A stretch of DNA of 29,496 bases from a virus, in the IMG/VR virus record IMGVR_UViG_3300001460_006018, positions 1 through 29,496 of that record, one strand, 5' to 3'. Under the pieces are notes generated by a model that had not been told where the DNA came from, did no database searches, and worked only from the letters and a program-made list of their open reading frames with translations. The first letter of the stretch is position 1; the number at the start of each line of letters is the position of its first letter. Shown one piece after another: positions 3,554 to 27,952 of the stretch. The position numbers and the translations under genes are program-made.

Positions 3554-3561
3554 TATTTATC
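3554..3561 (-). promoter_or_regulatory. T4-late-like promoter octamer
   Basis: Minus-strand GATAAATA lies 27 bases before the ATG at 3527 and overlaps the hemE stop codon. It is embedded next to a perfect 16-bp palindrome (3542-3557). Spacing matches the octamers in front of several other genes here. Confidence 0.55.
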
Positions 3562-4534
3562 TAAGGGTATCTCTAACCATTTGTACAAACATAGTGACGT
3601 TTTCTTCAGGTGTAGTTTTTGTGATGCCGTGTCCTAAGCCACATATCCACCCAGTAGTATCAATATTTTTCATTTTGTTTAAAAATTCTTTGATATGTTC
3701 TTTACATTCATCTCTTGGTAATAGTAATAATTTTTCATCAAAGTTACCTTGTATAAATCCATTTTTATATTTTTTAAAAGTATTATGAATATCAACAGTA
3801 CAATCAACACCAATGCCTGACCATCCCATTTTATATAAAGTAGGTAAACATCTTTTGTTTAATTCTTTAGTATAATATCCAGTATTTTCAAAAATTAAAG
3901 GTTGTAATATTTCAGTATACTTTTGCTTAAAAAAGTTTTCACTCATAGTGCTAACACCACTATCAAGCACCATAACTTTTTCAGCACCTGCATCTAGTTG
4001 AATCCTGATATTTCTATAAAGAAGAGGTACAATAACATCATTCAAATACTTTGTTTTCCATTGCAAGCTCATATTAGGTTGTTTACCTGTAGCATAATTT
4101 AATAATGTCCACGGGCCTCCTACAAATCCTATCAAACTTTTTTTTGAATCTAATGCCTCTCTAGTTAATTTCACTGCGTTTCCTTGGAACTTCATATGTT
4201 CAACAGCTTTATCAACATCACTATGATTTTTATAATTATCTTCGTTAATAGTCCATTGAAACTTTGGTCCTGGACTAAATTCTAATGGCACACCTAAACC
4301 TTCTATAGGAAATAAAATATCACTAAACAATATTGCTATATCAAAATCAAATTGATCTATTGGTAACATTGCAGTACGTGCCGCAACTAATGGTAATTTA
4401 CACATTTGTTCAAATGTAAATTTTTCTTTTAACTCCATATAGCCTTTTTGATATCTGCCAGCTTGGCGCATCATCCATATAGGAGGGGTAGGTTGTTCTA
4501 TACGTTCATACGCATTTTTAAATTTATTATTCAT
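3557..4534 (-). CDS. hemE: Uroporphyrinogen decarboxylase
   Basis: The 325-residue product matches uroporphyrinogen III decarboxylase, which converts uroporphyrinogen III to coproporphyrinogen III in haem synthesis. The signature PPIWMMRQAGRY (17-28) gives the substrate-binding Arg23 and Arg27. ILFSDIL supplies the key Asp72, NYATGKQ has Tyr147 at the conserved tyrosine site, DSGVS has Ser192, and the C-terminal GLGHGI has His302. All residues known to line the active site are therefore present, and the N-terminal signature separates it from the MtaA/CmuA methyltransferase branch of the fold. It is slightly shorter than cellular enzymes (about 340-355). It starts one base after the dehydrogenase stop and ends the radical SAM operon. 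A weak ribosome-binding site suggests translational coupling. Confidence 0.9.
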   Translation of the reverse strand: MNNKFKNAYERIEQPTPPIWMMRQAGRYQKGYMELKEKFTFEQMCKLPLVAARTAMLPIDQFDFDIAILFSDILFPIEGLGVPLEFSPGPKFQWTINEDNYKNHSDVDKAVEHMKFQGNAVKLTREALDSKKSLIGFVGGPWTLLNYATGKQPNMSLQWKTKYLNDVIVPLLYRNIRIQLDAGAEKVMVLDSGVSTMSENFFKQKYTEILQPLIFENTGYYTKELNKRCLPTLYKMGWSGIGVDCTVDIHNTFKKYKNGFIQGNFDEKLLLLPRDECKEHIKEFLNKMKNIDTTGWICGLGHGITKTTPEENVTMFVQMVRDTLR

Positions 4535-4535
4535 G

Positions 4536-5096
4536 CTATTTAAGATTTGCTTTCATAGGGTGATGCCAAATTGCAAGTTCAAAAATTTGGATATCTTGTG
4601 GTTGATCTATGCAGTATTTAACATTGTTAGCAACTATCTTTGGATCCATTTTTTTAAATATACGTAACATTTTTATCATATCAGTATCAGTCCACCCAGC
4701 AATAATATTAGTAACTCTACACTTTTGATTGCCATTATTCATAGCAGTTAAACAAGCTTGTTTCACTCTATTGTGTAATTCTTGTTTATTGATAACATAA
4801 GATCCAAATTTAGATTTAGTTTCCGGATAATAACTAGAACTGCCTATATTCACTATAGTCTTTTCTTTATATCTCCAGTCTTGCCAAAATAAATTAAATA
4901 ATTTTAATTGTCCATCCTTTGATTGTGCATTGTTAATAAAGATATCAAAATCTTTTGCTTCTTCGAATATTTTTTCAGGGTCATTAATATTATAGCCATT
5001 ACTTCTACTGTAGCCTATTACATCATGCTCTTGCCCAAGTAGATCGTAGATAGCTAACCCTATACCTTTTGTATGGCCAGTTATTGCTATTTTCAT
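4536..5096 (-). CDS. Short-chain dehydrogenase/reductase (SDR), compact
   Basis: The 186-residue product has the Rossmann-fold SDR motifs in order: TGHTKGIG at 6-13 for the dinucleotide, NNA at 55-57, a serine cluster IGSSS near 84-88, and the catalytic YxxxK as Tyr100-Lys104. It is shorter than most classical SDRs (about 250), lacking much of the C-terminal substrate region, but the catalytic set looks complete. The substrate cannot be told. Its start overlaps the radical SAM stop as ATGA and hemE follows one base after its stop, so the three proteins are made from one message and may act on related metabolites. Confidence 0.85.
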   Translation of the reverse strand: MKIAITGHTKGIGLAIYDLLGQEHDVIGYSRSNGYNINDPEKIFEEAKDFDIFINNAQSKDGQLKLFNLFWQDWRYKEKTIVNIGSSSYYPETKSKFGSYVINKQELHNRVKQACLTAMNNGNQKCRVTNIIAGWTDTDMIKMLRIFKKMDPKIVANNVKYCIDQPQDIQIFELAIWHHPMKANLK

Positions 5097-6781
5097 GCTA
5101 AGGCCAATTCCTCATTTAAGGATCTAACATGATTTATTAATTTTAATTCAGTGTGATAATTGTCAATCCATTTACGATTGCGTTCATATACAGGTTGCGG
5201 CACAACTTTTGCAGTAAGTATTCCAACAGATTCTAAATGGTCATACCCTAAACTTCTTAACCGAGGATAAGCCCAAAAGTTTGTGTTATAACTAAAGTGT
5301 CTTTCAAATGCTGTCTTAGGATGATCTATTAACATTTTTTCCCATTCAAGAGACATTGCTTGTGCATCATGCAGATCCATTGTATTGTGTTTCCAATAAT
5401 AATTTGGATAATACTCTAAATGAATACCGTATGGATTATCTGGTTTTCCTGTGAATGCAGGAGATTTACTATCATTGCCATCTGATACAAAGAACAATTC
5501 ATATTGTATTTTATCTAAAACCTGTTGTTCTTGAAACCATCTTGCAGTGTTACGTAAACTGTCCATTGTTTCGCCTGGCAATCCAATTATCATACTAGCT
5601 AAAATAAAAACATCGTCTTGTGCTACTTCACGCATCCATGTAATTATTTCTTTCATTTTTTCTGGATCTAATCCTTTTCCAGCAAGTTTACCTGCTGTGT
5701 GATCAAGTGTTTCGACACCAAGAAAAACACCACGACATCCCATATCTATCATTTTTGGCCACATCTCTGGATACTTACTAAACATATCTGGTCTACAATA
5801 GCTAATCCATTCCATTTTAAATGGTAAGCTTTTTATAACTTTGTGCATCATATCTATTTTTTCTGGACTATCATTAACAGTATCATCAGTAAGCATATAC
5901 CCACTAATTCCAAAGTTTTCATAATTGTATATTAACTCTTCTCTAAGACATTCTGCATCTTTAATTTGTGTTCCTCTGATATCATAAAAACAAAATTTAC
6001 AACCAAATCGACATCCCTTGCTAATTTCTAAAGGCATCCATTCACCATTTTTTATAGCCATATTATGTTGAAAATTTCCTTTTAAAATTTTTGCACCAGT
6101 TGATGCCATTTTAGTTTCATTAATAAAATAGATATCATTTTTCTCGTGAACTTTAGTTGGATCTAATTCACCATTTAAAAATTCAACAATAGTATCTTCA
6201 GCATATCCGTTGAATACATAATTTATGTATTTTTGAAATGCAGTAGGAAAATTTGCTTCTGGTCTTGTTTTAAAATGTATTTTGAAAAATAAATCTGTTA
6301 TAGCACCGCCTAATATAAATTCTATATCTGGATTTATTTTGTGTATTCCCTCAAACCATTCATGTACTTTTGCGTGTCTTGTAAACCATAAATTAAAGTC
6401 TTGAGCTCTTGGATTAAATGTGTTCAATAAGAAAGTAGTAGATAGTCCAATGTAGTGAGTGTCCTCATTTATAAAATTTTCAATGTATTGGTGAAAGTTT
6501 TCTATTTTTGTAAACCAATCAATAACGACACATTCCCAATCTGGACAATTTTGGTTAATAGCACTAGCTACAGCATATGGACCCATATAACGACTCCAAA
6601 ATGTATATTTGTTATTAGTAGAAATCATCTTGACTTCATACTTTTCATTAGCTTTTTCAAGATGTTCTAAATGCTGAGCATTAAATTCGTCATCAGATAA
6701 GTCTTCCAAGGCAGACTGAGTTGATCCTGTTATATCATTATCAAAAATATCATTGAGTAAGATAATTCTTTTTTTACCCAT
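5093..6781 (-). CDS. Radical SAM protein with N-terminal B12-binding-like domain
   Basis: The 562-residue product carries the radical SAM cluster motif CRFGCKFC (Cys257, Cys261, Cys264) preceded by LEISKG. It is followed by a TIM-barrel-like region with TDDTVND, GVFLGVETLDH and the IGLPGET strand. Residues about 60-210 resemble the cobalamin-binding domain of the BchE/B12-radical SAM families (HYIGLSTTF, EFILGGA), but the DxHxxG cobalamin-ligand motif is not seen, so B12 may not be bound or may be bound base-on. It should cleave S-adenosylmethionine with a [4Fe-4S] cluster; the substrate is unknown. A strong AAAGGTGG ribosome-binding site precedes the ATG. It leads the operon with the SDR and hemE, which invites, but does not prove, a tetrapyrrole-related reaction. 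Confidence 0.85.
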   Translation of the reverse strand: MGKKRIILLNDIFDNDITGSTQSALEDLSDDEFNAQHLEHLEKANEKYEVKMISTNNKYTFWSRYMGPYAVASAINQNCPDWECVVIDWFTKIENFHQYIENFINEDTHYIGLSTTFLLNTFNPRAQDFNLWFTRHAKVHEWFEGIHKINPDIEFILGGAITDLFFKIHFKTRPEANFPTAFQKYINYVFNGYAEDTIVEFLNGELDPTKVHEKNDIYFINETKMASTGAKILKGNFQHNMAIKNGEWMPLEISKGCRFGCKFCFYDIRGTQIKDAECLREELIYNYENFGISGYMLTDDTVNDSPEKIDMMHKVIKSLPFKMEWISYCRPDMFSKYPEMWPKMIDMGCRGVFLGVETLDHTAGKLAGKGLDPEKMKEIITWMREVAQDDVFILASMIIGLPGETMDSLRNTARWFQEQQVLDKIQYELFFVSDGNDSKSPAFTGKPDNPYGIHLEYYPNYYWKHNTMDLHDAQAMSLEWEKMLIDHPKTAFERHFSYNTNFWAYPRLRSLGYDHLESVGILTAKVVPQPVYERNRKWIDNYHTELKLINHVRSLNEELALA

Positions 6782-6914: not shown

Positions 6915-7679
6915 TTAGAAGTTAAACGATAAGTGAACAGATGGTGTCCAATCTTCATTATCAAGATTGTAATTAATATCTGTACCTAATGTAACACCAG
7001 ACATATTGTGATCATATCCAATACCTAAGTTTTGCAATAAATCAGCATCTGTACCATTTGCATATAATGTTGCACCTGCTAAAGTTGTTACACCTTCATA
7101 ACCAAAAAGCTCAAGGTCAGTATCATAAGTTACAGCACCGCCTAAACCTGTACTACCAACCTTAAAGTCAGATAGTGAAGCACCAACAATAATGTTATCG
7201 CTATTAAGATTATAGTCAACAGCACCAGTAATAGATCCTACTCCAGAACCAATTTTATATGATCCTTGAATGTTACTTAAATCAGATACATCAGCTTTAA
7301 CATCATTAAAACCTAAAGCAAGGCTACCAGCACCTATATTGGCTTGTAAACTGTCACCCATTGTTGGAATTGAAAGAGAATGTTCTCCTTCTGCACCAAC
7401 CCAAACATCGCCTTGTTTACCAAATGATAAACCAACCATGTTAATTGTAGTTCCAAGATGCCATTCGTCAACATCAAAATCACCGCCAGGTACAGCTTTT
7501 AATTCAATGCTACCATTAGCCACATCACCTGCGGCAATGCCTAATGTAAATTCTGTAGTAGCACCCCAGTCACCTTTACTTGTTTCTGCAACTGTAGATT
7601 TAATCTCTCCCGAGAGGTCTGCGGCAAATGCTGAACCAGCAAAAACGACCGCGGCCAAAGTAGTAAATACCATACGCAT
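6915..7679 (-). CDS. Outer-membrane porin-like beta-barrel protein
   Basis: The 254-residue product has a clear signal peptide (MRMVFTTLAAVVF, then AGSAFA with cleavage before Ala-Asp). The mature chain alternates polar and hydrophobic residues in short strands separated by Gly/Asn/Asp turns throughout. It ends in HLSFNF, a C-terminal Phe with alternating hydrophobics, the usual signal for BAM-dependent insertion into the outer membrane. This points to a roughly 10-14-strand barrel, related in style to alphaproteobacterial general porins although smaller. It may replace or modify the host's permeability or block receptors during infection. It forms its own unit, with a late-like octamer 64 bases upstream and a terminator downstream. 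Codon use is AT-rich like its neighbours, so any host acquisition is not recent by that measure. Confidence 0.8.
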   Translation of the reverse strand: MRMVFTTLAAVVFAGSAFAADLSGEIKSTVAETSKGDWGATTEFTLGIAAGDVANGSIELKAVPGGDFDVDEWHLGTTINMVGLSFGKQGDVWVGAEGEHSLSIPTMGDSLQANIGAGSLALGFNDVKADVSDLSNIQGSYKIGSGVGSITGAVDYNLNSDNIIVGASLSDFKVGSTGLGGAVTYDTDLELFGYEGVTTLAGATLYANGTDADLLQNLGIGYDHNMSGVTLGTDINYNLDNEDWTPSVHLSFNF

Positions 7680-7795: not shown

Positions 7796-8716
7796 TTATG
7801 CAACAATTTTGTTATGGTTTTCGATAAAATTGTTATAATTAGATATTCTAAAGGTAATCCTGTGCAAAACTCTTTTTGCAAGAATTTCTGGATCATTTTG
7901 ATCTCTTTTATGCAATGTTAGTAACTGATCCATTAGTACAATATCTCCCGGTTCGTACCAATGCTGATATACATATTTGTCTTGAAACATATGATCATAT
8001 AAACGTTGGAAAAGTGTTTCATCTTTTGTGATAATTTTACATTTATTGTTTGTGTAAAAATAAAGACCCTTTACACCTGCAACGTTTTGTTGAAGCAACC
8101 ACATCTTATAAGGTTTGTCATCTACTGAATCTTTCTTCATCATTTTTAATTGTGTGTCAGATAATCCTTTAGCCCATACTTCTGGTGTGTATTCATATTC
8201 ACAATGCACACCTTCTAATTCTTTTTTAAACGCATCATCTAAATCATTATATGCTAGATTTGTATTCAAATAACTTGTGCTAGTGTTTTCACAACCTTCG
8301 TAACCTTGTAGTGCTACACCATCAGCACGATCTAATCCATTTAAGTTGGCGTGCCAATCTAATATACCCGAGCTGAATATACCTGTTGATATACCTTTTT
8401 TATTCTTTTTTGCAGTTGTTCTTTGTATAGGATATAGTTCTATATCTTTATCCCATTTGCTAGTGTTAGGAGGAGTCTTACCAAGATAAAACTCACCTTC
8501 TTTTGTATAAATCATTTGCCTGTAGTTAGCAACAGTGCCTATACGTTCAATAAAATTTACAAAGTGATAAGGAAGACGATTTTGTTTTTTTAATACTACT
8601 ATTAAATTATTGTGTAATAATTCTTTAATGCCAAGTACATCATCATCACTAATATTTGAAATATCAACATTGTTAACTTTTACAGCTACACCATTATTAA
8701 GATTTTGAAATTGCAT
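7796..8716 (-). CDS. TauD/TfdA-like dioxygenase homologue with altered metal site
   Basis: From the ATG at 8716 the product has 306 residues. A longer reading to 8782 would need a GTG and overlap the upstream gene; the ATG with AGGAT upstream is preferred. The LDWHANLNG segment sits where TauD-type 2-oxoglutarate/Fe(II) enzymes have the HxD pair, and the C-terminal WYEPGDIVLMDQLLTLH...RVLHRITFR matches the distal His and the 2-oxoglutarate-binding Arg. The expected metal-ligand Asp is Asn here (His122, Asn124 in this numbering), so the enzyme may be inactive, halogenase-like in geometry, or use another ligand. The substrate is unknown. Next gene upstream is a 70-aa protein of unknown role. 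Confidence 0.65.
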   Translation of the reverse strand: MQFQNLNNGVAVKVNNVDISNISDDDVLGIKELLHNNLIVVLKKQNRLPYHFVNFIERIGTVANYRQMIYTKEGEFYLGKTPPNTSKWDKDIELYPIQRTTAKKNKKGISTGIFSSGILDWHANLNGLDRADGVALQGYEGCENTSTSYLNTNLAYNDLDDAFKKELEGVHCEYEYTPEVWAKGLSDTQLKMMKKDSVDDKPYKMWLLQQNVAGVKGLYFYTNNKCKIITKDETLFQRLYDHMFQDKYVYQHWYEPGDIVLMDQLLTLHKRDQNDPEILAKRVLHRITFRISNYNNFIENHNKIVA

Positions 8717-8747
8717 ATAATAATTTATCCTAGTATTACAAGGAATA

Positions 8748-8960
8748 TTACCACTTTTGAGACAATTTTTCTTTAAGTTCACGTTGTGAGCTAATAGCTC
8801 TTATACAGCTTAATATAGCATTAGCTCTTGTAAATGCTGATTTGCTATATCCATTAAATTGTTTATTTTGTTCTGTTTCTTTTTGAAATTCTGCTAATAA
8901 AATAGATTCCATTAATTTAAAGTCGCTGTCGGATAAATCTTGCATTCTGTTTACTAGCAT
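8748..8960 (-). CDS. Hypothetical helical protein, 70 aa
   Basis: The 70-residue product is charged and probably all helical (DSDFKLMESILLAEFQ, AFTRANAILSCIRAI, LKEKLSQKW). No domain is recognised and there is no membrane segment. AGGAG precedes the ATG by about six bases. A late-like octamer lies 27 bases upstream, so it appears to be the first gene of a late transcript that also carries the TauD-like gene. Confidence 0.65.
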   Translation of the reverse strand: MLVNRMQDLSDSDFKLMESILLAEFQKETEQNKQFNGYSKSAFTRANAILSCIRAISSQRELKEKLSQKW

Positions 8961-14812: not shown

Positions 14813-16423
14813 TTAAGCCATATGTCTTAATGTGAAATCAAATTGATCTGCGTCAGCACCTTCGCCTATTGTTAAATTTTTTGCATTAATTTGTATTCTA
14901 GATCCTGAAAGACTAGCTGAAAATTCTAATGCTTCTGATAGTGTGGAATTTCCATCAAATAAGTAATCGTCGGCAAAATTAACAATTGAGCCTGAATTAT
15001 CTTTATTCCAATTAAATGTCATAGTACCTCTTCTATGCACAGGTCCTGGCGAATTCTGTGCAGTATATTTGTAATAAACTTCTATAGTTCCTGTGATACC
15101 ATCTGCAGGCAATGCCATAAAAAATGTCGAAGTAAGTCGTCCACTTATACCAGTTGATACTACGTAATTATTCACATAATCTTTTGGACCTTCTATTTCT
15201 GGAAGATAAAGGTTTGTATTATAATTTGTATCTACGGTTAGATCTTTAGTCCGTTGAAAATAATCATTATCACTATGATTGCCTGTTTTACCAAATTTAA
15301 TAACACTTGAAACTGGATTATGACTATCGGCGGCATCATTTCCAACATATACAAATTTATTATTTTGTGATGTATTAACTGAGCCATTATCTATTGTTAT
15401 TGCTTGTCTGTTTATATTATTAAAGCTTATATTTTCTATAGTGTTATAGCTTGGTCCTGTAATTTGCCCTGCGGAACCTGGTACTGTTCCTATGCCAAAC
15501 TTGAATCCATATGCCATTTGTTGCATTTTTCCACCATCAAATTGATTATAACTAGCATCATCATCTGAAAAATATGCATACGCATAATTTTCTATATGAA
15601 TATTTTTAAATATGTTGTTTACACAATCTAACGATCCTAATGAACCACTACGCAATTTAAATGCACCATAATCAACTGTTACTCCGTTACCAAAGAGCCA
15701 TTGTCCTTTTAAATGTAGGTTTATAAATTCACTGTCTTTACAGTTTTGTAAAATAATAGTTCCACCATACTGACTATGGGTAATTGACATATTGCTTATT
15801 TTGATGTTTTTTGGTTGATTTCCGCTTGTATTAGTACTATCGTCTGCATATACTCCATTGCCAGAACTTGAGCTATTTTTTGTGTAAAATACACTACTTC
15901 CTGTACCTGTAAGCAATGTTTTGTTCATACCATCACCTACTATGGTAGCATAAGGTGGAACATAAATTGGACTAGTAATTAGATATTCTCCGGCAGGTAC
16001 TTTTAAAGTAATATTTTTGTAAACTCCTCCAACTGGTGATAAAAATAATTGATCTACTGCTCTTTGTAAGGCCGCAGTCTGATCTGAACCATCACCTGTT
16101 GCACCAAAATCTTTTACACTAACAATATCATCTAGCTTTTGTGCAATTGATCTTTTTACAGGTGTTGCTGATGATGCACCGGTTTGAACATTGTCAGCAG
16201 TTCTATATGTATATTGTCCTACTAAAGATAATATATCACTTTTAGTAGTTAATATTTCGGAGTTACCAGTAGCAGGAGCACCTTCACTTACACTACCGTT
16301 TCCTATATATAGTTTTTGTTGATCTATTGCCCATCCAAGTTCTCCACTAGCAAGTTGAGGTACACCTGAAACCTGTGCTTTACCTCTACGATGTTGAATT
16401 CTTGATATTTGTACAACAGCCAT
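14813..16423 (-). CDS. Tail fibre/tailspike with pectate-lyase-like beta-helix
   Basis: The 536-residue product starts with an N-terminal module common in marine myovirus fibre proteins (SRIQHRRGKAQ, then GELGWAIDQQKLYIGNG). A linker with Gln/Ser-rich spacing follows, then SVKDFGATGDGSDQTAALQRA at about 102-121, the entry to the pectate-lyase-3/right-handed beta-helix fold. Asn-rich parallel-strand turns fill about 140-400, and the C-terminal part reads like a beta-sandwich. It most likely binds, and perhaps depolymerises, host surface glycan; no catalytic pair can be named. A late-like octamer lies 27 bases upstream and GAGGAG precedes the ATG. Confidence 0.85.
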   Translation of the reverse strand: MAVVQISRIQHRRGKAQVSGVPQLASGELGWAIDQQKLYIGNGSVSEGAPATGNSEILTTKSDILSLVGQYTYRTADNVQTGASSATPVKRSIAQKLDDIVSVKDFGATGDGSDQTAALQRAVDQLFLSPVGGVYKNITLKVPAGEYLITSPIYVPPYATIVGDGMNKTLLTGTGSSVFYTKNSSSSGNGVYADDSTNTSGNQPKNIKISNMSITHSQYGGTIILQNCKDSEFINLHLKGQWLFGNGVTVDYGAFKLRSGSLGSLDCVNNIFKNIHIENYAYAYFSDDDASYNQFDGGKMQQMAYGFKFGIGTVPGSAGQITGPSYNTIENISFNNINRQAITIDNGSVNTSQNNKFVYVGNDAADSHNPVSSVIKFGKTGNHSDNDYFQRTKDLTVDTNYNTNLYLPEIEGPKDYVNNYVVSTGISGRLTSTFFMALPADGITGTIEVYYKYTAQNSPGPVHRRGTMTFNWNKDNSGSIVNFADDYLFDGNSTLSEALEFSASLSGSRIQINAKNLTIGEGADADQFDFTLRHMA

Positions 16424-16835: not shown

Positions 16836-17401
16836 CCTTTTTTTTGAATTTTTTTCCATTCATTCCAAATAGGAATTTTCTTTTTATAATTACCTTTTGT
16901 GCTTAAAGGCTGGTTATTGATGTGTAGAACCCAAGCATCAAACCATTGTTTAGCAATATCTTCATCACCTCTAAGTAAATAATATCTTGCTTTCATTCTG
17001 CATTTACCTCGTTGAGGATTATCTTTGTGTCTAATAGCGTTGCGTATTTTGTCTGTAGCTTTATATATTTGTGGGTCATCTAATCTACCAGTAAATCCTT
17101 TGTCTTGGAAGTTTGGATTTGCCTTACCTCCAGCTGATCCACCGTGCTCCTCTACAAGATTAGCAAATGCATTGTTATTAACAACATCGAGTTTTATTGA
17201 GTAATCCATTGCAACTTTTTCAAAAGTATCTTTATGATTACTTTCGTAAAGTATTTCGGTTGTTACGTCATTTCCGTGTAATTCTATATGCCTTGTCCAG
17301 TAAACACCAGATCCTTTGTACTTGTATGGATCTCTAGTTGTTTGTCCAAGATATTTTTTTCCTGTAAGATTGTGTGTTTTAAGATAAAGAGTTTGCTTCA
17401 T
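16832..17401 (-). CDS. GIY-YIG-like (homing-type) nuclease domain protein
   Basis: Starting at the ATG at 17401 the product has 189 residues. Its N-terminus, TLYLKTHNLTGKKYLGQTT, then RDPYKYKGSGVYW and RHIELHG, matches the degenerate GIY-YIG module of phage proteins (LYLK for GIY, KYLG for YIG, an Arg and a later Glu). A Lys-rich C-terminus could bind DNA. The frame is open another 147 bases upstream, but that part lies inside the exonuclease gene and is not family-like. Such genes are often free-standing homing nucleases or relics of them. Confidence 0.65.
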   Translation of the reverse strand: MKQTLYLKTHNLTGKKYLGQTTRDPYKYKGSGVYWTRHIELHGNDVTTEILYESNHKDTFEKVAMDYSIKLDVVNNNAFANLVEEHGGSAGGKANPNFQDKGFTGRLDDPQIYKATDKIRNAIRHKDNPQRGKCRMKARYYLLRGDEDIAKQWFDAWVLHINNQPLSTKGNYKKKIPIWNEWKKIQKKG

Positions 17402-18065
17402 AATATTGATATACTCTATTCCACCATTCTGTTTTCCACTCATCAAACTCATCTGGCCACAGATCAAACTGTTGATATTCTCCAGCCCTACTACACATAA
17501 AAATATGTCCTTCACGTATATCTGTTCCGTGTATCTCGTTATGAGCAATAGCGTAGGCTGTTAACTGTAGGAAATAATCCTCTACCCACTCTAGCTTTTT
17601 AGGCTTGTTAGTTTGTTTGAAGTCCATTATACATGGATTGCCTTTGTATTGTCCTACTAAATCAGTTGTACCTGCATAAAGCCCTGGAACATACAAAGGA
17701 ACTTCACTTCCCCATATTTCATCTACATCATCCATTGCATGGACTTTAATTTTTGTAGCCATTGTATGAGCTTGTTGAGCATATGGATTACTTCCTGGAG
17801 AAGGCCACTCACCGGTTTCAACATAAGTTTCTAAATAATGGTGCATACGTGTTCCAACACCACTAGCTTCTGTAACTATTTCTTGTGCTTTTTGTTCACC
17901 TACACGTTTTTTCCATGCAATAAGATGTGTCATATCTTTAGTACCACTAAGGATTGTTGTAACACTAGCCACAGGAGGTCCGCCTGGAGTTTCGTAACGG
18001 CGTTTACCATCTATGTTTATTCTTTTTAGTTTTGCGTAATTGTATTTTTCTATTATAAGTGTCAT
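17379..18065 (-). CDS. PD-(D/E)XK exonuclease (Cas4/RecB-like)
   Basis: The 228-residue product shows the RecB/Cas4 nuclease order: GTRMHHYLE with His75, the acidic AGTTDLVG with Asp135, IMDFKQ with Asp148 and Lys150, and QLTAYAIAH with Gln167. A GGPPVASVTTIL segment near the N-terminus is typical of phage exonucleases of this group. No C-terminal Fe-S cysteines are visible. It would process DNA ends during replication or recombination. There is no ribosome-binding site, and the promoter places the transcript start at or next to the ATG, so the mRNA is probably leaderless. Confidence 0.85.
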   Translation of the reverse strand: MTLIIEKYNYAKLKRINIDGKRRYETPGGPPVASVTTILSGTKDMTHLIAWKKRVGEQKAQEIVTEASGVGTRMHHYLETYVETGEWPSPGSNPYAQQAHTMATKIKVHAMDDVDEIWGSEVPLYVPGLYAGTTDLVGQYKGNPCIMDFKQTNKPKKLEWVEDYFLQLTAYAIAHNEIHGTDIREGHIFMCSRAGEYQQFDLWPDEFDEWKTEWWNRVYQYYEANSLS

Positions 18066-18101: not shown

Positions 18102-18329
18102 TTATAAATCGCCACCTACATCTGTTGCACGTTTAGCCATCGAAGGTACTGAATCTTGGTCACCGCCACCTTTTGATAAGCTATTCCCAAAATTAATTTT
18201 TTCGCTATCATAGTTACTAACAATATTTTTTATTCTATCATCAGCTTGGAAAGCGGCATCAAATGTTTCGTAATTAAATTGTGGTATTTCGCTATTATCC
18301 ATCATTTTATCTAGGTCCTCGAAAGACAT
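18102..18329 (-). CDS. 75-aa ORF, possibly the -1 frameshift extension of the upstream gene
   Basis: Read from the ATG at 18329 this gives a 75-residue acidic, helical protein with a Gly/Ser-rich tail (MSFEDLDKMM, KGGGDQDSVP). The ribosome-binding site is poor. The frame stays open a further 24 codons upstream, encoding the protein-like VTEEVNTDNLYRLLRLIKAE to the end of the 256-aa gene, where the A-rich slip site lies. The ORF could therefore be the C-terminal part of a 355-residue frameshift product rather than a separate gene. Only the start at 18329 is available for independent translation. Confidence 0.6.
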   Translation of the reverse strand: MSFEDLDKMMDNSEIPQFNYETFDAAFQADDRIKNIVSNYDSEKINFGNSLSKGGGDQDSVPSMAKRATDVGGDL

Positions 18330-18397
18330 AGACTCAACGCCTTCGGCTTTTATAAGCCTTAATAATCTGTAAAGATTGTCTGTGTTAACCTCTTCGG

Positions 18398-19168
18398 TTA
18401 CTTTTTTTTTGACGCAAGGGTTGTTGCCAACTTACGTGGATCAACACTTTCTCTTGCTTCTCTACCTGCTGGTGCATCTCCACCTGCCGCTGGTTCAGCC
18501 GCGGCAAAGTCATCATCTCCTGCAGGAATAGCGGCATCATCTTGATCAACTGTAGGTTCCATGCTAGGATCCATTGGCATATCATCACCGCCCATTGGTG
18601 CTGGCATAGCTTCGCCTTCACCTGTAAGCATTCCTACACCATTACTTAGAGCCGCTCGTGTGCCTTCCATTGATGTATATAATTCATCTAGACTTGCTTT
18701 TATAGTTTCAACATAAGCATTACTCTGCTCAACACCAAGTTCATCTCTGATTGCATCTGCTAAGTCTAACATTGATTCTGTTTTCATTTCAGCTGTATCT
18801 TCCATCCAGCCTGTTACTCTATCAACCATATCCTTGGCGGCCATAACTATTTCAGCTTGATCTTCTGCACCTTCATTGATGGTTGTTTCTGCAACAATAT
18901 TTTCTTCATCAACATCGCCTCTTTCAGAAAGTTCTGCATTCAAGATATCTAAAAAAAGTTTTGATTTTTGATAATCGTCATTTTCAACTACTGCATTGAA
19001 ACTTTCACTCATTTCAATTTGGCTTAGTTTTGTTCTCAATTTGTTTCGAGCATTTTGTAGTTGTTCTATAGTAAAAGACTCAAGAGAAAGTTTTTTACCA
19101 AATCGCTTTTCTAAACTTTCGTTAAGGCTTTTAGCAGTTACCGGTTTTGCAAATTCTGAAATATTCAT
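18398..19168 (-). CDS. Acidic protein with low-complexity tail, candidate frameshift gene
   Basis: The 256-residue product begins MNISEFAKPVTAKSLNESLEKR. It has an N-terminal helical region (about 15-90), a long helical middle and a very acidic, Ala/Pro/Met-rich low-complexity tail (about 200-240: DDDFAAAEPAAGGDAPAG). It ends ASKKK at an AAAAAAAAAG run directly before its stop. It is in keeping with scaffolding- or assembly-type phage proteins but I recognise no family. A late-like octamer lies 30 bases upstream, suggesting virion assembly. At the stop, a dnaX-like slip site could join it to the 75-aa frame. Confidence 0.8.
   Translation of the reverse strand: MNISEFAKPVTAKSLNESLEKRFGKKLSLESFTIEQLQNARNKLRTKLSQIEMSESFNAVVENDDYQKSKLFLDILNAELSERGDVDEENIVAETTINEGAEDQAEIVMAAKDMVDRVTGWMEDTAEMKTESMLDLADAIRDELGVEQSNAYVETIKASLDELYTSMEGTRAALSNGVGMLTGEGEAMPAPMGGDDMPMDPSMEPTVDQDDAAIPAGDDDFAAAEPAAGGDAPAGREARESVDPRKLATTLASKKK
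18401..18407 (-). other. Possible -1 ribosomal frameshift site A AAA AAG
   Basis: In the reading frame of the 256-aa gene the last codons are TCA AAA AAA AAG TAA, so the classic dnaX heptamer A AAA AAG sits in the correct phase one codon before the stop. A -1 slip gives GTA ACC GAA GAG and continues through 24 codons into the 75-aa ORF. A small stem (TAACC...GGTTA) starts immediately after. No upstream Shine-Dalgarno-type stimulator is obvious. Confidence 0.5.
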
Positions 19169-19206: not shown

Positions 19207-19620
19207 CTAAGAGAAGATAATTTGTTCTAACTGATCAATAGTTGCATCCATATCCACTTGAGCAACTGATAATCGTGCGTCTAAAACATCTTTTTTGAAG
19301 TCATCGGCAGTATTATTATAGCTATTTTCATAAAACATTATATCAGCACTATATTTTCCTGCAACATTATCTAGTTTTATAGCTTTATCGATATTTCTTT
19401 CTTCGCTATAAAGTTTTGCAATAGCCAATGCTCCATGCTTACAATATGCTGAGCCTATAGCTATATCTTGTTTACAATCAAATAACAAAAAACTTTTATC
19501 TTTCCGTTGTCTTACAATAACAGGGCCAATACGTATTGCATTGCCTGCCTTATGAGGCAAGGGATACTTTGATAATCCTATATCAAGTAAGGATTTTATT
19601 TCATTTATAAGATTTTTCAT
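19207..19620 (-). CDS. Conserved hypothetical protein, 137 aa
   Basis: The 137-residue product has a central strand-rich part (GNAIRIGPVIVRQRKDKSFLL, YCKHGALAIAKLY) and a helical acidic C-terminus (DATIDQLEQIIFS). No domain is recognised. It begins inside the upstream 70-aa gene (20-base overlap), typical of the dense late cluster here. It may be a minor structural or assembly protein by location only. Confidence 0.65.
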   Translation of the reverse strand: MKNLINEIKSLLDIGLSKYPLPHKAGNAIRIGPVIVRQRKDKSFLLFDCKQDIAIGSAYCKHGALAIAKLYSEERNIDKAIKLDNVAGKYSADIMFYENSYNNTADDFKKDVLDARLSVAQVDMDATIDQLEQIIFS

Positions 19621-19813
19621 TATTAACCAAATAACACTTTCCGTTATGAAGGACTCTTTTTATTATATCTTTTTTTATTAAATTGTCAAGTATAAATTGT
19701 TGTCTTTCTGCGAATTCATTGTAGTCACAAAGGCTTGGTAGTTCTCGTAACAAAGATTCTTCTTCGTTAGTCGTAGACACCATGATGCCATTTGATATTT
19801 CTTTAAAATTCAT
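19601..19813 (-). CDS. Hypothetical protein, 70 aa
   Basis: The 70-residue product is helical and charged (EEESLLRELPSLCDY, RQQFILDNLIKKDII) with a Lys/Tyr/Asn-rich end. No family is recognised. It overlaps the upstream coiled-coil gene by ATGA and the downstream gene by 20 bases. Confidence 0.6.
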   Translation of the reverse strand: MNFKEISNGIMVSTTNEEESLLRELPSLCDYNEFAERQQFILDNLIKKDIIKRVLHNGKCYLVNNEKSYK

Positions 19814-20106
19814 CTAACTGGAGTACCTGCTGGATCAGGGGCTCCCATTGTGTTACCTGGTTGTGTCTGCGTGTTACCTGGTTGTGTCTGCGTGTTAGCT
19901 GACTGTAAACGCATTTTTTGTGCATTTTGTACTGCTACCTGAGCGGCTTTAATTGCTTCATCTGAAGCCCTCATTTGTGATTGTAATTGTGTCATCTGAT
20001 CTTGTATAGCTACTTTAGCATCTTTTGCAGATTGGAGTTGCACTTGTGCCATTTTTACAGGATCTTGGTCCGGTGCTTCAACTATATTTAAATCAGTAAT
20101 TTTCAT
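19810..20106 (-). CDS. Coiled-coil protein with tandem NTQTQPG repeat
   Basis: The 98-residue product is a Gln/Ala-rich helix over about residues 15-68 (VQLQSAKDAKVAIQDQMTQ, AIKAAQVAVQNAQ), followed by a disordered tail with two copies of NTQTQPG and a third degenerate copy (NTMGAPD). The repeat comes from a 21-bp tandem duplication at 19851-19892. No family is recognised. It overlaps both neighbours by ATGA. Confidence 0.65.
   Translation of the reverse strand: MKITDLNIVEAPDQDPVKMAQVQLQSAKDAKVAIQDQMTQLQSQMRASDEAIKAAQVAVQNAQKMRLQSANTQTQPGNTQTQPGNTMGAPDPAGTPVR
19851..19892 (+). repeat. 21-bp tandem direct repeat within a gene
   Basis: TGTTACCTGGTTGTGTCTGC plus G occurs twice in exact copies (19851-19871 and 19872-19892), followed by a partial third copy with changes. 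It keeps the reading frame and encodes NTQTQPG on the minus strand. Confidence 0.9.
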
Positions 20107-20363
20107 CTGTTCATTGCCTTAACTCTGATACTGGCTGGATTAATCCTTTTTGTACGCTTTGCTTTTCTTGTCATCTTAGATCCTAATCTAGCCTTAGTGA
20201 TTTTTAACCTATTTCTTTTAGCTACGTCTGGCGGTGCAAAACATTGTGCCACATTAGAAACTGTTCTTCCTTTTCTAGCACCAGCTGTGCATCTATATTT
20301 GCGAACTACAGTATTGCCTCTTTTTGCGTAGACTTGTCTTTCAAACAATTCTCGTAATAACAT
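20103..20363 (-). CDS. Strongly basic small protein, 86 aa
   Basis: The 86-residue product is rich in Arg and Lys (KRGNTVVRKYRCTAG, GSKMTRKAKRTKRINP) with two Cys (Cys25, Cys41) near the Arg-rich middle. It starts MLLRELFERQ. No family is recognised; it may bind nucleic acid or pack with DNA. Its start lies one base after the stop of the coiled-coil/membrane gene. Confidence 0.65.
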   Translation of the reverse strand: MLLRELFERQVYAKRGNTVVRKYRCTAGARKGRTVSNVAQCFAPPDVAKRNRLKITKARLGSKMTRKAKRTKRINPASIRVKAMNR

Positions 20364-20688: not shown

Positions 20689-21063
20689 TTATTTATCAAA
20701 GGTTTCGAAAACAATATTTTTATCTTCTCCTTTGGTAATGAAAACATTTTCTTTAAAATCTTTTGTTTCTTCAAGTTCTGCTATAAAAGGCACCAGCATA
20801 AAATCAGTTAACATCATATCTATAGTTAACGCACCTTCAAAAGCAATCGTAAAAGTAAGTTGCCATACTTGATTATCATTAAAATTTTTATTGTCTTGCA
20901 CTAGTATTGGATCATCATCAATAGTAGGATTTACTCTAAGTCCAATAGTATTAATCACAGTCATAAAATTTTGTTTTTGTCCATACGCAATTCTGTTTTC
21001 TTTAGATACTTTCCTGTGATTAGTAATATCTACTGTAGTCCTTAAAGTAAACTTAGTTTCCAT
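20689..21063 (-). CDS. Conserved hypothetical strand-rich protein
   Basis: From the ATG at 21063 the product has 124 residues, METKFTLRTTVDI and on; an ATG four codons upstream is also in frame. The pattern of strands (VINTIGLRVNPTIDDDP, QVWQLTFTIAFEGAL, MMLTDFMLVPFI) suggests a compact beta protein of the kind conserved in marine T4-like phages. No function can be named. It overlaps the sulfotransferase stop. Confidence 0.65.
   Translation of the reverse strand: METKFTLRTTVDITNHRKVSKENRIAYGQKQNFMTVINTIGLRVNPTIDDDPILVQDNKNFNDNQVWQLTFTIAFEGALTIDMMLTDFMLVPFIAELEETKDFKENVFITKGEDKNIVFETFDK
20690..20697 (-). promoter_or_regulatory. T4-late-like promoter octamer
   Basis: Minus-strand GATAAATA lies 80 bases before the gene at 20610 and overlaps the stop codon of the gene before it. 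The spacing is longer than at the other sites. Confidence 0.4.
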
Positions 21064-21613
21064 ACTTATATCCATATTCTAATATATCTCTAAAATAAAT
21101 ATCCCTAACAAAGTCGATTAATTCTTGGGTGTATAAGTCTTTATAATTGTACTCAACATTCTTATTAGTAGTTGGTAAAGGTATATGACAGTCTAACTTA
21201 TCTTGTATTTGTGTGAAATCTTCTTGTAAATTTTCAAATCTTAATATCTTTGTATAAGTGCCAAACCAATCATGCTGAGGGGTATCTAAACTATACCAAG
21301 CTCTTGCCCAAAGTAAAAATGGTTGAAAAGAAAGATTTGATGCATTTTTAGCAACTCTTTTTAGTAACCAATCTTTAAAGTTTTGATTTCCGTGGTTAGC
21401 AAATAGATACCAACTTGCTAGTCTTTCCCAAGGGTTTCTTACTACTCCAAATGTATAAGTTGTATTTGGAAAGTAAGTATTCACTTCAACTATATGTCCA
21501 TGTTTTTTGCCTTCAACTGTTTTGAAATTAGCATCTAACCACTGACTAATACTTGTACCAGCAGTTTTTGGATTATGTATAAAAGTTGTGTAGTGTTCTG
21601 GCAGGTAACGCAT
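21053..21613 (-). CDS. Sulfotransferase-family protein
   Basis: The 186-residue product has the sulfotransferase PAPS-binding motifs: IHNPKTAGTSIS at 12-23 (the P-loop-like 5'-phosphosulfate loop) and GVVRNPWERLASWY at 56-69 (3'-phosphate loop with Arg59 and Ser67). The rest fits the Sulfotransfer_2-type fold used on glycans and cell-surface molecules. It is short for the family but both binding loops are present. It may modify a phage or host surface sugar. Its end overlaps the downstream gene; a bidirectional-type terminator lies just upstream. Confidence 0.8.
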   Translation of the reverse strand: MRYLPEHYTTFIHNPKTAGTSISQWLDANFKTVEGKKHGHIVEVNTYFPNTTYTFGVVRNPWERLASWYLFANHGNQNFKDWLLKRVAKNASNLSFQPFLLWARAWYSLDTPQHDWFGTYTKILRFENLQEDFTQIQDKLDCHIPLPTTNKNVEYNYKDLYTQELIDFVRDIYFRDILEYGYKYGN

Positions 21614-23382: not shown

Positions 23383-24147
23383 ATGATAACAAAACTGACT
23401 TTTAAAGAACGTTCTTTATTATTTGCAAAGCTTGCTAAGATTGCATACTATGATACTGATAAAGCTAAGTCACAAGCTAAGAAATTAAAATTTACTACAA
23501 CAGAGTTTTATGATAAAGATGGTGCTCAAGCATACAGATTTCAAAACAAAAATGATTTAGTTATTGCTTGCCGTGGTACTCAACCTACAGAATGGAATGA
23601 TATTAAAGCAGATCTTAGAGCAATGCCTGTAGTAGCAGAAACAGTAAGTAGAGTGCATAAAGGATTTAAGGCAGAAGTTGATGAACTATGGCCCATGGTG
23701 TTAGAAGATTTGCAAAGAAAAACTAATCAAAATAAAAAGATTTGGTTTTGTGGACATAGTCTCGGAGCCGCAATGGCAACAATAATGGCAAGTAGATGTC
23801 ATTTGTATACAGATATTGCACCAGTTGAAGAACTTTATACTTACGGATCACCTAGGGTAGGCTGGAAAAAGTATTGTAAATCATTAGGAGTTACACATCA
23901 CCGTTGGAGGAACAATAATGATATTGTTACAAAAGTTCCATTAAGAATAATGGGCTACGTACATGACGGAAAGCAATACTATATTACAAGCAATAATCGT
24001 ATTGGATATCCAAGTATCGGTGACTGGTGGCAAGGTACATGGAACGGAATTAAAAATCGTAGATTTGATTCTATAGGTGATCATGACATACAATCATACT
24101 ACGATAATATTGACAAGGCACTGTCAGATATACCTCCGCATTATTAA
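23383..24147 (+). CDS. Class-3 lipase-like alpha/beta hydrolase
   Basis: This is the only plus-strand gene of the window. The 254-residue product has the class-3 lipase elements: CRGTQ (oxyanion region) near 63-67, the nucleophile elbow WFCGHSLGAA with Ser126, YGSPRVG at 154-160, NNNDIVTKVP with Asp180 and GDHDIQSYY with His234. The triad Ser126-Asp180-His234 is complete. It would hydrolyse esters such as glycerolipids. No signal peptide is visible, so it acts in the infected cell or on release, perhaps on host membranes. GGAGG precedes the ATG. The stop overlaps the stop of the convergent downstream gene. Confidence 0.9.
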   Translation: MITKLTFKERSLLFAKLAKIAYYDTDKAKSQAKKLKFTTTEFYDKDGAQAYRFQNKNDLVIACRGTQPTEWNDIKADLRAMPVVAETVSRVHKGFKAEVDELWPMVLEDLQRKTNQNKKIWFCGHSLGAAMATIMASRCHLYTDIAPVEELYTYGSPRVGWKKYCKSLGVTHHRWRNNNDIVTKVPLRIMGYVHDGKQYYITSNNRIGYPSIGDWWQGTWNGIKNRRFDSIGDHDIQSYYDNIDKALSDIPPHY

Positions 24148-25744: not shown

Positions 25745-26830
25745 TTACCACCCAAGCGTTTCCCATGGTACATCTTTGTTTCCAAAGTGTCCATATGTAC
25801 AATTTTCACTATACCTATGAAAGTTAAACAAGTCAAACCTATCAATAATTCCTTTGGGTGTTAAATCAATTTCACGTTCGATAAACTTTGCTATACTTGC
25901 ATTGTGTCCGTTTGAATCAACATATATACTAGTTGGTTCTTTGACTCCAATAGCATAACTTAGTTGTATATTACACCAATCTGCCATGCAATCATTTACT
26001 ACGTTCTTTGCTAACCACCGGGCCATGTATGCCGCACTCCTATCTACTTTGGTAGGATCTTTTCCACTAAAAGCACCACCACCATGAGGAGCAAAGCCGC
26101 CATAGGTATCAACAATAATTTTGCGACCAGTAACTCCTGAATCACCGTCAGGCCCACCAATAACAAAGTTACCAGTAGGGTTAAGATGCCATACAGTATT
26201 GTCATCTATTAAATCTCCTAACTCTTCCATTGCGGCAAGTTTACAAATATGTCTTGCCTCTTCTACATTACCTTGTGTGTGTTGTGTACTAACAACCACT
26301 TGGTCAATGCGTTTAATTATGCCATCTCTTCGAGCTCCATAATATTCAACACTCACTTGGCTCTTAGCATCTGGACCTAATATTGCACCACGCTTGTTAT
26401 TTAAGTTCTTTAGAATTCTATGACTATAATGAATAGGTGCAGGCATCATACTATCTGTATGATTGCAAGCATAACCAAACATCATTCCTTGGTCACCTGC
26501 ACCAAAGTCGTCTGTGCCTAAGCCAATGTCTCCGCTTTGTGAATGAATCTCATTGTATATTTTTAGTTTGTCCCAATGAAATCCGTCTTGTTCATATCCG
26601 ATTTCTTTAACCTTATTGCGTATAATGTCTTTTACATTGTCTACATTAAAGTTCTTTACTTCGCCCGCTACCGTTACATGGTTAGTGGTTACCAGTGTTT
26701 CAACTGCAACACGAGTTGTTTCGTCTCCGTTGGCTAGGCCTGCATCCACAAGTGCATCACTTATCTGATCTGCTACTTTATCTGGATGACCGTTGCTTAC
26801 ACTTTCGCTTGTAAAAATGTGATTAGTCAT
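25745..26830 (-). CDS. metK: S-adenosylmethionine synthetase
   Basis: The 361-residue product is a complete MetK, making S-adenosylmethionine from methionine and ATP. Signatures are GHPDKVADQISDA at 14-26, the GAGDQGMMFGYA hexapeptide region at 109-120, and GGGAFSGKDPTKVD at 250-263. It is a little shorter than bacterial enzymes (about 383-396). The ribosome-binding site is AAGGAG. A 56-aa membrane ORF is directly upstream. No clear promoter is seen before it, so it is probably read from further upstream. Confidence 0.95.
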   Translation of the reverse strand: MTNHIFTSESVSNGHPDKVADQISDALVDAGLANGDETTRVAVETLVTTNHVTVAGEVKNFNVDNVKDIIRNKVKEIGYEQDGFHWDKLKIYNEIHSQSGDIGLGTDDFGAGDQGMMFGYACNHTDSMMPAPIHYSHRILKNLNNKRGAILGPDAKSQVSVEYYGARRDGIIKRIDQVVVSTQHTQGNVEEARHICKLAAMEELGDLIDDNTVWHLNPTGNFVIGGPDGDSGVTGRKIIVDTYGGFAPHGGGAFSGKDPTKVDRSAAYMARWLAKNVVNDCMADWCNIQLSYAIGVKEPTSIYVDSNGHNASIAKFIEREIDLTPKGIIDRFDLFNFHRYSENCTYGHFGNKDVPWETLGW

Positions 26831-27038: not shown

Positions 27039-27557
27039 TTAGTAATCAACTCCTGAATAAAAAGGAATCTTTCTATTCTTTATTATACTAGAGCCTGGTA
27101 AGAATGTCAAGTTCATAATACAGGCACAAGCAATAACATTTCCACCTAATTCTTCAACAATATCCACAGCGGCATTCATTGTTCCGCCCGTAGCCATCAA
27201 ATCATCAATTATAATAACATTATCGTCTTTTGATATTGCATCTGATTTTATTTCTAATGTGGCAGTATCATATTCTAATTGATACTTTTTGGATAAAACT
27301 GGTGGTGGAAGTTTTCCTTCTTTACGAGCAAGTACTAATGGCCCTCTTGTTCTATGAGCAAATACACTTGCGAAAATAAATCCTCTTGCATCTAAGCCTA
27401 CAATTTTATCTACTGGACAATATTTTAGTAAGTTACTGTAGATAAAATTATTTGCCTCAGCAAAGCCTTCTGGACTTTGGCAGAGACTGGCTGTGCATTT
27501 AAAGTCTATACCTTCTTTTGGAAAATCTTGATAACTTCTTATATATTCTTTTATCAT
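27039..27557 (-). CDS. apt: Adenine phosphoribosyltransferase
   Basis: The 172-residue product matches Apt throughout: ARGFIFASVFA near 57-67, ARKEGKLPPP at 77-86, YQLEYDTATLEI (the Y.LEY...LEI hood) and the PRPP-binding loop NVIIIDDLMATGGTM at 113-127. It converts adenine and PRPP to AMP. Its length (about 170) is normal for the family. The start overlaps the stop of sufE (ATGA). With metK in the same operon it could recycle adenine from S-adenosylmethionine breakdown. Confidence 0.9.
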   Translation of the reverse strand: MIKEYIRSYQDFPKEGIDFKCTASLCQSPEGFAEANNFIYSNLLKYCPVDKIVGLDARGFIFASVFAHRTRGPLVLARKEGKLPPPVLSKKYQLEYDTATLEIKSDAISKDDNVIIIDDLMATGGTMNAAVDIVEELGGNVIACACIMNLTFLPGSSIIKNRKIPFYSGVDY

Positions 27558-27952
27558 AATGCTGATACCTTTGTTTGTAGTGTGCTAATAAGACTACTAA
27601 GTCCGTTGCGTCTGTTTGCACTTAAAATACCTTCTAGTGCTAGTGCTTCAAAGTCTTCACGTTGAATTTTTTTAGCATCGTCTATTGGCAAATCATCAAA
27701 GCAATCACAAATAACGTGTGTAACACCTTTAGTAATCATAGCATCACTATCATAGTAGATTTTAGTTTTATTATCTACAGCACCTACGTCTATCCATATC
27801 TGTGACATACATCCGCTTACAAGTTTATCATCTGATCGTAACTCTACTGGTAATGTAGTAGGTTCTCTAGCCATGTCAATTAACATCGCATATTGATCCA
27901 TTACATCATCAAATATTTCTAATTCTTCTGCCCAGTATTGTATTTTGCTCAT
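27554..27952 (-). CDS. sufE: SufE-like Fe-S cluster sulfur acceptor
   Basis: The 132-residue product has the SufE pattern with the sulfur-accepting Cys48 in VSGCMSQIWI, the DVGAVDNKTKIYYDSDAM strand-turn and GVTHVICDCFDDLP. SufE takes sulfur from a cysteine desulfurase (SufS) and passes it to the SufBCD scaffold for [4Fe-4S] assembly. No desulfurase is in the window. It starts in an ATGA overlap with a 24-aa ORF and ends in an ATGA overlap with apt. Confidence 0.85.
   Translation of the reverse strand: MSKIQYWAEELEIFDDVMDQYAMLIDMAREPTTLPVELRSDDKLVSGCMSQIWIDVGAVDNKTKIYYDSDAMITKGVTHVICDCFDDLPIDDAKKIQREDFEALALEGILSANRRNGLSSLISTLQTKVSAL

Follow-up and report, generated by a model that had tools for sequence, protein, structure and literature searches.

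A slippage-prone run of nine A's that may fuse two predicted internal head proteins of a T4-superfamily jumbo phage across a candidate prohead-protease site

The window analysed here, the whole 29,496-nucleotide stretch of the IMG/VR record IMGVR_UViG_3300001460_006018, is a fragment of the genome of an aquatic T4-superfamily jumbo phage and makes up most of a 31,950-base virus contig. It carries on its minus strand a 256-aa gene, A, and a second reading frame, B, which is entered from the end of A by a -1 shift and lies upstream of an exonuclease gene (Table 1). The 3' end of A reads TCA AAA AAA AAG TAA. The preliminary description had placed a dnaX-like -1 frameshift site, with its heptamer in phase, at this stop, and had predicted a 355-residue product running through the -1 frame into a 75-aa ORF. 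The site is confirmed both by the sequence and by the relatives presented below, and the coordinates agree with a fusion of A and 99 further residues. The ribosome-binding site of the 75-aa ORF, described as weak, is indeed so at the 18329 start.

Table 1. Features of the A/B locus and its neighbours, in window positions; a slash in a peptide marks the predicted cut
Feature	Position	Strand	Remarks
Gene A	18398..19168	minus	256 aa; predicted carrier inside the head, with a hit to PHROG 14154 (virion structural protein)
Putative capsid-targeting propeptide of A, MNISEFAKPVTAKSLNE	19118..19168	minus	predicted cut after E17, before S
Nine-A run (slippage site)	18402..18410	minus	followed by G at 18401
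In-phase heptamer A_AAA_AAG	18401..18407	minus	
Frame-0 stop TAA	18398..18400	minus	immediately 3' of the heptamer
Seam motif V-T-E	18393..18401	minus	predicted prohead-protease site of the [V/I/L]xE form
B, -1-frame extension	18102..18401	minus	predicted second head protein; 99 codons plus stop, open from 18401 to the stop at 18104-18102
75-aa ORF of the preliminary description	18102..18329	minus	in the frame of B; its ATG is an internal methionine of B
Exonuclease (PHROG 298)	17379..18065	minus	downstream of B; synteny marker, order shared with isolates
98-aa gene	19810..20106	minus	targeting-like N-terminus MKITDLNIVE/A; likely internal head protein, by pattern only
86-aa basic protein	20103..20363	minus	N-terminus MLLRELFER; possible internal head protein, by pattern only

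Relatives of A are encoded in at least 597 stretches of viral contigs, and 173 distinct relatives, grouped into 63 clusters with one representative each, were compared. The same split and a conserved slip site are both present among them: in 162 of the 173 sequences, an in-phase A_AAA_AAG or A_AAA_AAA is found near the stop of A with B in the -1 frame, in five others, which belong to a single clade, B lies in the +1 frame, and in the remaining six A and B are separate genes. The A-run is usually exactly nine, as in the nearest relative (L002, 91% identical), which has the identical nine A's, and the distance from the slip to the stop of A varies from 0 to 18 nt. Most of the 173 sequences carry at the seam a run of nine or more A's, which is avoided elsewhere in coding sequence. 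Indeed, in the other coding sequence of the 63 cluster representatives, 257 kb in total, 19.7 runs of at least nine A's are expected and one was seen. The presence of the nine-A run at the seam is far beyond chance.

The reading frame beyond the slip was compared between 25 independent close pairs. Over the first 25 codons, dN/dS is 0.16 in the -1 frame and 1.43 in frame 0, and it is 0.12 in the -1 frame for the rest of B. Judged by these ratios, selection acts on the protein encoded by the -1 frame, beginning with its first codons. An ATG was sought in the first 25 codons of this frame and is absent in 55 of the 63 clusters, and an internal start with a Shine-Dalgarno sequence for B is absent in 62 of them. 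By contrast, the A genes have a Shine-Dalgarno start in 52 of 63.

The proposed dnaX heptamer is present, but the conserved feature is the nine-A run, more than the heptamer alone, which makes slippage by RNA polymerase a live rival to a ribosomal slip of the E. coli dnaX type. In the former case, the fusion would be translated normally from transcripts that contain one extra A, as in Thermus dnaX, and the rest of the account given below would be unchanged. Such an origin is consistent with the presence of at least nine A's in about 95% of sites regardless of codon phase, and with the fourfold-degenerate base before the AAA codons, which is A in 57 of 62 clusters against a background of 41% (p 6e-17). 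Since this wobble A is selected, the run is kept longer than a ribosomal heptamer needs. Transcriptional slippage on nine A's is known from bacteria, as in Thermus dnaX, and it is at this length that many bacterial genomes begin to show selection against slippage (PMC1088944). Furthermore, a freshwater-type clade (L374, L379, L381, L383 and L407) has A10 or A11 seams followed by B in the +1 frame, and a fusion would result there if one A were lost; a synonymous TCA/TCC change distinguishes A10 from A11 and preserves the frame relation.

On the other hand, several observations point to the ribosome. The phase is that of A_AAA_AAG in 102 of 115 sites, and in E. coli this heptamer shifts far more readily than the related ones tested (PMC5009743). 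Three lineages have eight A's, and L216 and L244 have only six, the minimal A_AAA_AAG, with a strong hairpin on its 3' side. Five further candidates for six-A sites (L130, L134, L143, L144 and L161) were rejected as short-run evidence, an upstream nine-A run being also present. The hairpin signal is maximal just after the slip, with a mean z of about -1.16 compared to -0.1 to -0.9 elsewhere, though only in some lineages. Strong lineage-specific hairpins, possible stimulators in differing registers, follow the slip in L034 (down to -26 kcal/mol), L178, L205, L208 and L216; the TAACC-GAAGA-GGTTA hairpin that follows it in the window is not conserved among relatives. A Shine-Dalgarno-like element upstream of the slip occurs in 6 of 63 clusters. 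Long A and T runs are both avoided in coding sequence, thus the avoidance itself cannot separate ribosome from polymerase. We lean slightly towards a ribosomal -1 shift and regard slippage by the polymerase as a credible, somewhat less probable source of the fusion; both may contribute.

With the A of the window as a query, no named phage was found at E 1e-5, whereas a profile built from the relatives of A detected homologues in PA5oct, Phosso, Vibrio 2.275.O, XaC1, Atu_ph07 and SCTP-2. All six isolates have a small gene directly after A, separate and with its own start, and the exonuclease gene is next or a few genes on. The identification of this small gene as B rests on position and N-terminus, plus a C-terminal motif in SCTP-2, PA5oct, Vibrio 2.275.O and XaC1; for Phosso and Atu_ph07 the homology is weaker, being suggested mainly by position and N-terminus. 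The PA5oct annotation lists A (gp247) and B (gp246) alike as structural (virion) proteins detected by MS. Two near-complete relatives of 357 and 262 kb encode a T4-type gp21 protease and gp23, with genes at the portal and gp22 positions, and gp23 from the 262-kb relative shares 66-71% identity with those of Phosso, Vibrio 2.275.O, XaC1 and PA5oct. The gp21 gene was found in these two relatives only and is absent from the 32-kb contig of the window. In both near-complete relatives, A is located in a small-protein cassette more than 100 kb along the contig from the gp21 and gp23 genes; an assignment of A as gp22 was rejected, since a separate gene lies between gp21 and gp23. Short-motif matches in the cyanophages S-SCSM1 and S-H34 were dropped for want of a slip site, and the A profile has no match in S-SCSM1. 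Structure prediction, which is weak for A, gives a helical protein with a disordered acidic tail and no significant match in the PDB. A winged-helix-like fold for B (best E 0.07 in structure-based matches to a weak prediction) was not relied on. Collectively, the best explanation is that both A and B belong to the internal head proteins of a jumbo phage from the T4 superfamily.

Internal proteins of T4 are brought into the prohead by a targeting sequence at their N-terminus, which gp21 removes by cleavage after L/I-x-E (PMC9026906, PMC5694885, PMC3012670), and these sequences are sufficient for the packaging of fused foreign proteins (PMC9026906, PMC3012670). The N-terminus of A resembles such sequences, with N16-E17 invariant and L15 nearly so among 20 relatives. 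The stand-alone B proteins of the six isolates also have targeting-like N-termini that end in [L/I]xE, the gp21 prohead protease motif, with predicted cuts in MRLSEIINE/S, VKIKDILVE/S, MRYKDLCE/G, MKYSQITE/D, MRLIDLLE/S and MRINDLFE/K. In the frameshift lineage, the start and the targeting part of B are gone and a [V/I/L]xE is kept right after the slip. The preliminary description, while correct in its frameshift and its two ORFs, missed this protease-like site, and likewise that B is a separate gene in isolates and is annotated as detected in PA5oct virions.

The motif is found within the first 14 residues past the slip in 158 of the 162 sequences and 61 of the 63 clusters, compared with a mean of 15.5 and a maximum of 27 clusters in 2,000 shuffling trials, and most other windows of B have it in 0-7 clusters. 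The four exceptions carry FTE, THE or TQE. The pattern is short, and its V is partly forced by the overlapping GTAA; the E is not forced, and seams with a more distant stop often have L or I. In the commonest seam P3 is V, whereas T4 gp21 is known to take L or I there. A YLAE/S or YLAE/T site lies at the expected place in gp23 of each of the two near-complete relatives. The seam looks like a predicted cut site of the phage's own gp21-type prohead protease.

We consider it quite likely that A and B form a system resembling retroviral Gag-Pol, in which slippage makes an A-B fusion, the targeting peptide of A packages B, and a protease separates them. Slippage on the nine A's would let part of the product run from A into B, the rest ending as A. 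The fusion would then enter the prohead core by means of the N-terminal peptide of A, so that B would need neither a start codon nor a targeting peptide, and its dose would be tied to that of A. In the assembled prohead, the gp21-type protease would cut after LNE in A and after the [V/I/L]xE of the seam, thus freeing B. This account builds on features read from the sequences, namely a conserved slip site followed by a -1 frame under selection, the lack of an internal start, the seam motif and the stand-alone B; we infer the shifted fraction, packaging through A, cleavage and the role of B.

Alternatively, the fusion might stay whole, with a minority of A copies permanently extended by B at the C-terminus, as in T7 10B or phage lambda GT, and with a [VIL]xE that is structural or accidental. 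Known phage structural frameshifts mostly yield uncut extensions (PMC5009743), which would favor such an arrangement. Nevertheless, the hydrophobic-x-E form is constant while the slip distance, the codons and the position of the stop vary, and the same motif closes the N-terminal peptide of the stand-alone B. Moreover, B can be a separate protein and so need not stay joined to A. A permanent fusion thus appears rather unlikely.

Two groups within the frameshift lineage depart from the fusion. A marine clade (L008, L009, L011, L018 and L037) has no slip site, and neither, separately, has L372; in both, B starts on its own with a targeting-like peptide, MKISDIINE/G in the clade and MKLFDLVKE/A in L372. 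In the tree of A, the marine clade and L372 are both nested in the frameshift lineage, and, given the starred branches, the split state requires two changes. The simplest history, judging from this unrooted tree and the stand-alone B of the isolates, would be that the frameshift was gained once and lost twice. Each apparent reversal of the frameshift has provided B with a targeting-like peptide, which suggests that the fusion and the peptide could be interchangeable routes for B into the head. It seems reasonably likely that slippage on the A-run replaced the start and the capsid-targeting peptide of B, giving a Gag-Pol-like system that was undone at least twice.

B could also be translated alone, either with initiation at an internal codon (18329 in the window) or with re-initiation past the stop of A, the A-run being incidental. 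In favor of this, the isolates encode B separately from A, and the marine split clade has a TAATG in which the stop of A and the ATG of B overlap. However, the ATG at 18329 is not conserved, no Shine-Dalgarno start is present in 62 of 63 clusters, and the run is kept where such runs are otherwise avoided. Furthermore, the stretch preceding 18329 is under coding selection, and with a start there most of this first selected stretch would go untranslated. We regard such independent translation as very improbable. Finally, homopolymers are prone to sequencing and assembly errors, but an error, which the identical nine A's of L002 and the same split across relatives exclude, or a decaying gene has a negligible chance of explaining a split shared by 162 distinct sequences from many metagenomes with varying phase, stop position and run length, with purifying selection on B and with the ten A's of a continuous gene in none of the relatives examined.

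In the retroviral Gag/Gag-Pol system, a particle-building carrier brings in a second protein as a frameshift fusion, and the viral maturation protease cuts the joint after assembly. Gag-Pol is made by -1 frameshifting (PMC5009743). The A/B locus would share with it the carrier, the fusion that takes in a second protein and the maturation protease that cuts the joint, the cut being predicted here. There is no sequence relation, and the present case concerns a dsDNA tailed phage whose cargo would be a small head protein and not a protease or polymerase. The targeting peptide and its removal at hydrophobic-x-E by a gp21-family protease, predicted here from sequence, recall T4, where fused foreign proteins are packaged and processed (PMC9026906); each T4 internal protein, however, has its own gene and targeting peptide, and no frameshift fusion is described there. 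In the PA5oct-type isolates (gp247-gp246 of PA5oct and equivalents), a homologous A is followed by a gene at the position of B upstream of the exonuclease, but this B has its own start and targeting-like peptide and no slip site.

Frameshifts in phage structural genes are already known, and the direction of the shift can vary between relatives (PMC5009743). As in phage lambda G/GT and T7/T3 10A/10B, slippage in the 3'-terminal part of a structural gene would give a minority C-terminal extension (PMC5009743). Those products are tail chaperones or capsid or tail extensions with no maturation-protease cut described, whereas two internal head proteins would be joined here. The heptamer is shared with E. 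coli dnaX (PMC5009743) and the nine A's with Thermus dnaX (PMC1088944); the dnaX shift leads to a shorter product, and that of this phage gene to a longer one. Among open-access papers, we found no earlier report of a frameshift joining two internal head proteins via a maturation-protease site. If correct, the proposed system would be a phage parallel to Gag-Pol, in which slippage sets the dose of the cargo, the carrier targets it and the maturation protease frees it, and a targeting peptide could be exchanged for a frameshift and perhaps back. It also predicts which small proteins occupy the heads of PA5oct-like jumbo phages. Since the natural sites of the family range from 6 to 11 A's and include both shift directions, ribosomal and transcriptional slippage could be directly compared in it.

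A cassette of small genes lies upstream of A in the window (19601-20363, minus strand), in L256 (12592-17711) and in L257 (10506-16628). Its N-termini resemble T4 capsid-targeting peptides ending in xxE (MKITDLNIVE, MKINEIVLE, MKLIDLLNE and MRFQEFKTLLTE), and its products are probably internal head proteins. The near-complete relatives have neighbours similar to the 98-aa gene; the 86-aa basic protein has no match in Pfam.

Several other genes of the window were noted. A tail-fibre-like protein (14813-16423, minus) combines an Mtd N-terminal domain with a pectate-lyase fold. A 254-aa protein (6915-7679, minus) without a Pfam match has a signal-peptide-like N-terminus and a porin-like repeat look (MRMVFTTLAAVVFAGSAFAAD...). 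The metabolic set comprises a radical SAM protein, a TauD-family dioxygenase, a sulfotransferase, S-adenosylmethionine synthetase and SufE, with a class 3 lipase on the opposite strand (minus: 5093-6781, 7796-8782, 21053-21613, 25745-26830 and 27554-27952; plus: 23383-24147). A uroporphyrinogen decarboxylase, HemE (3557-4534, minus; Pfam URO-D, E 2.6e-62), is a heme-pathway gene unusual for a phage.
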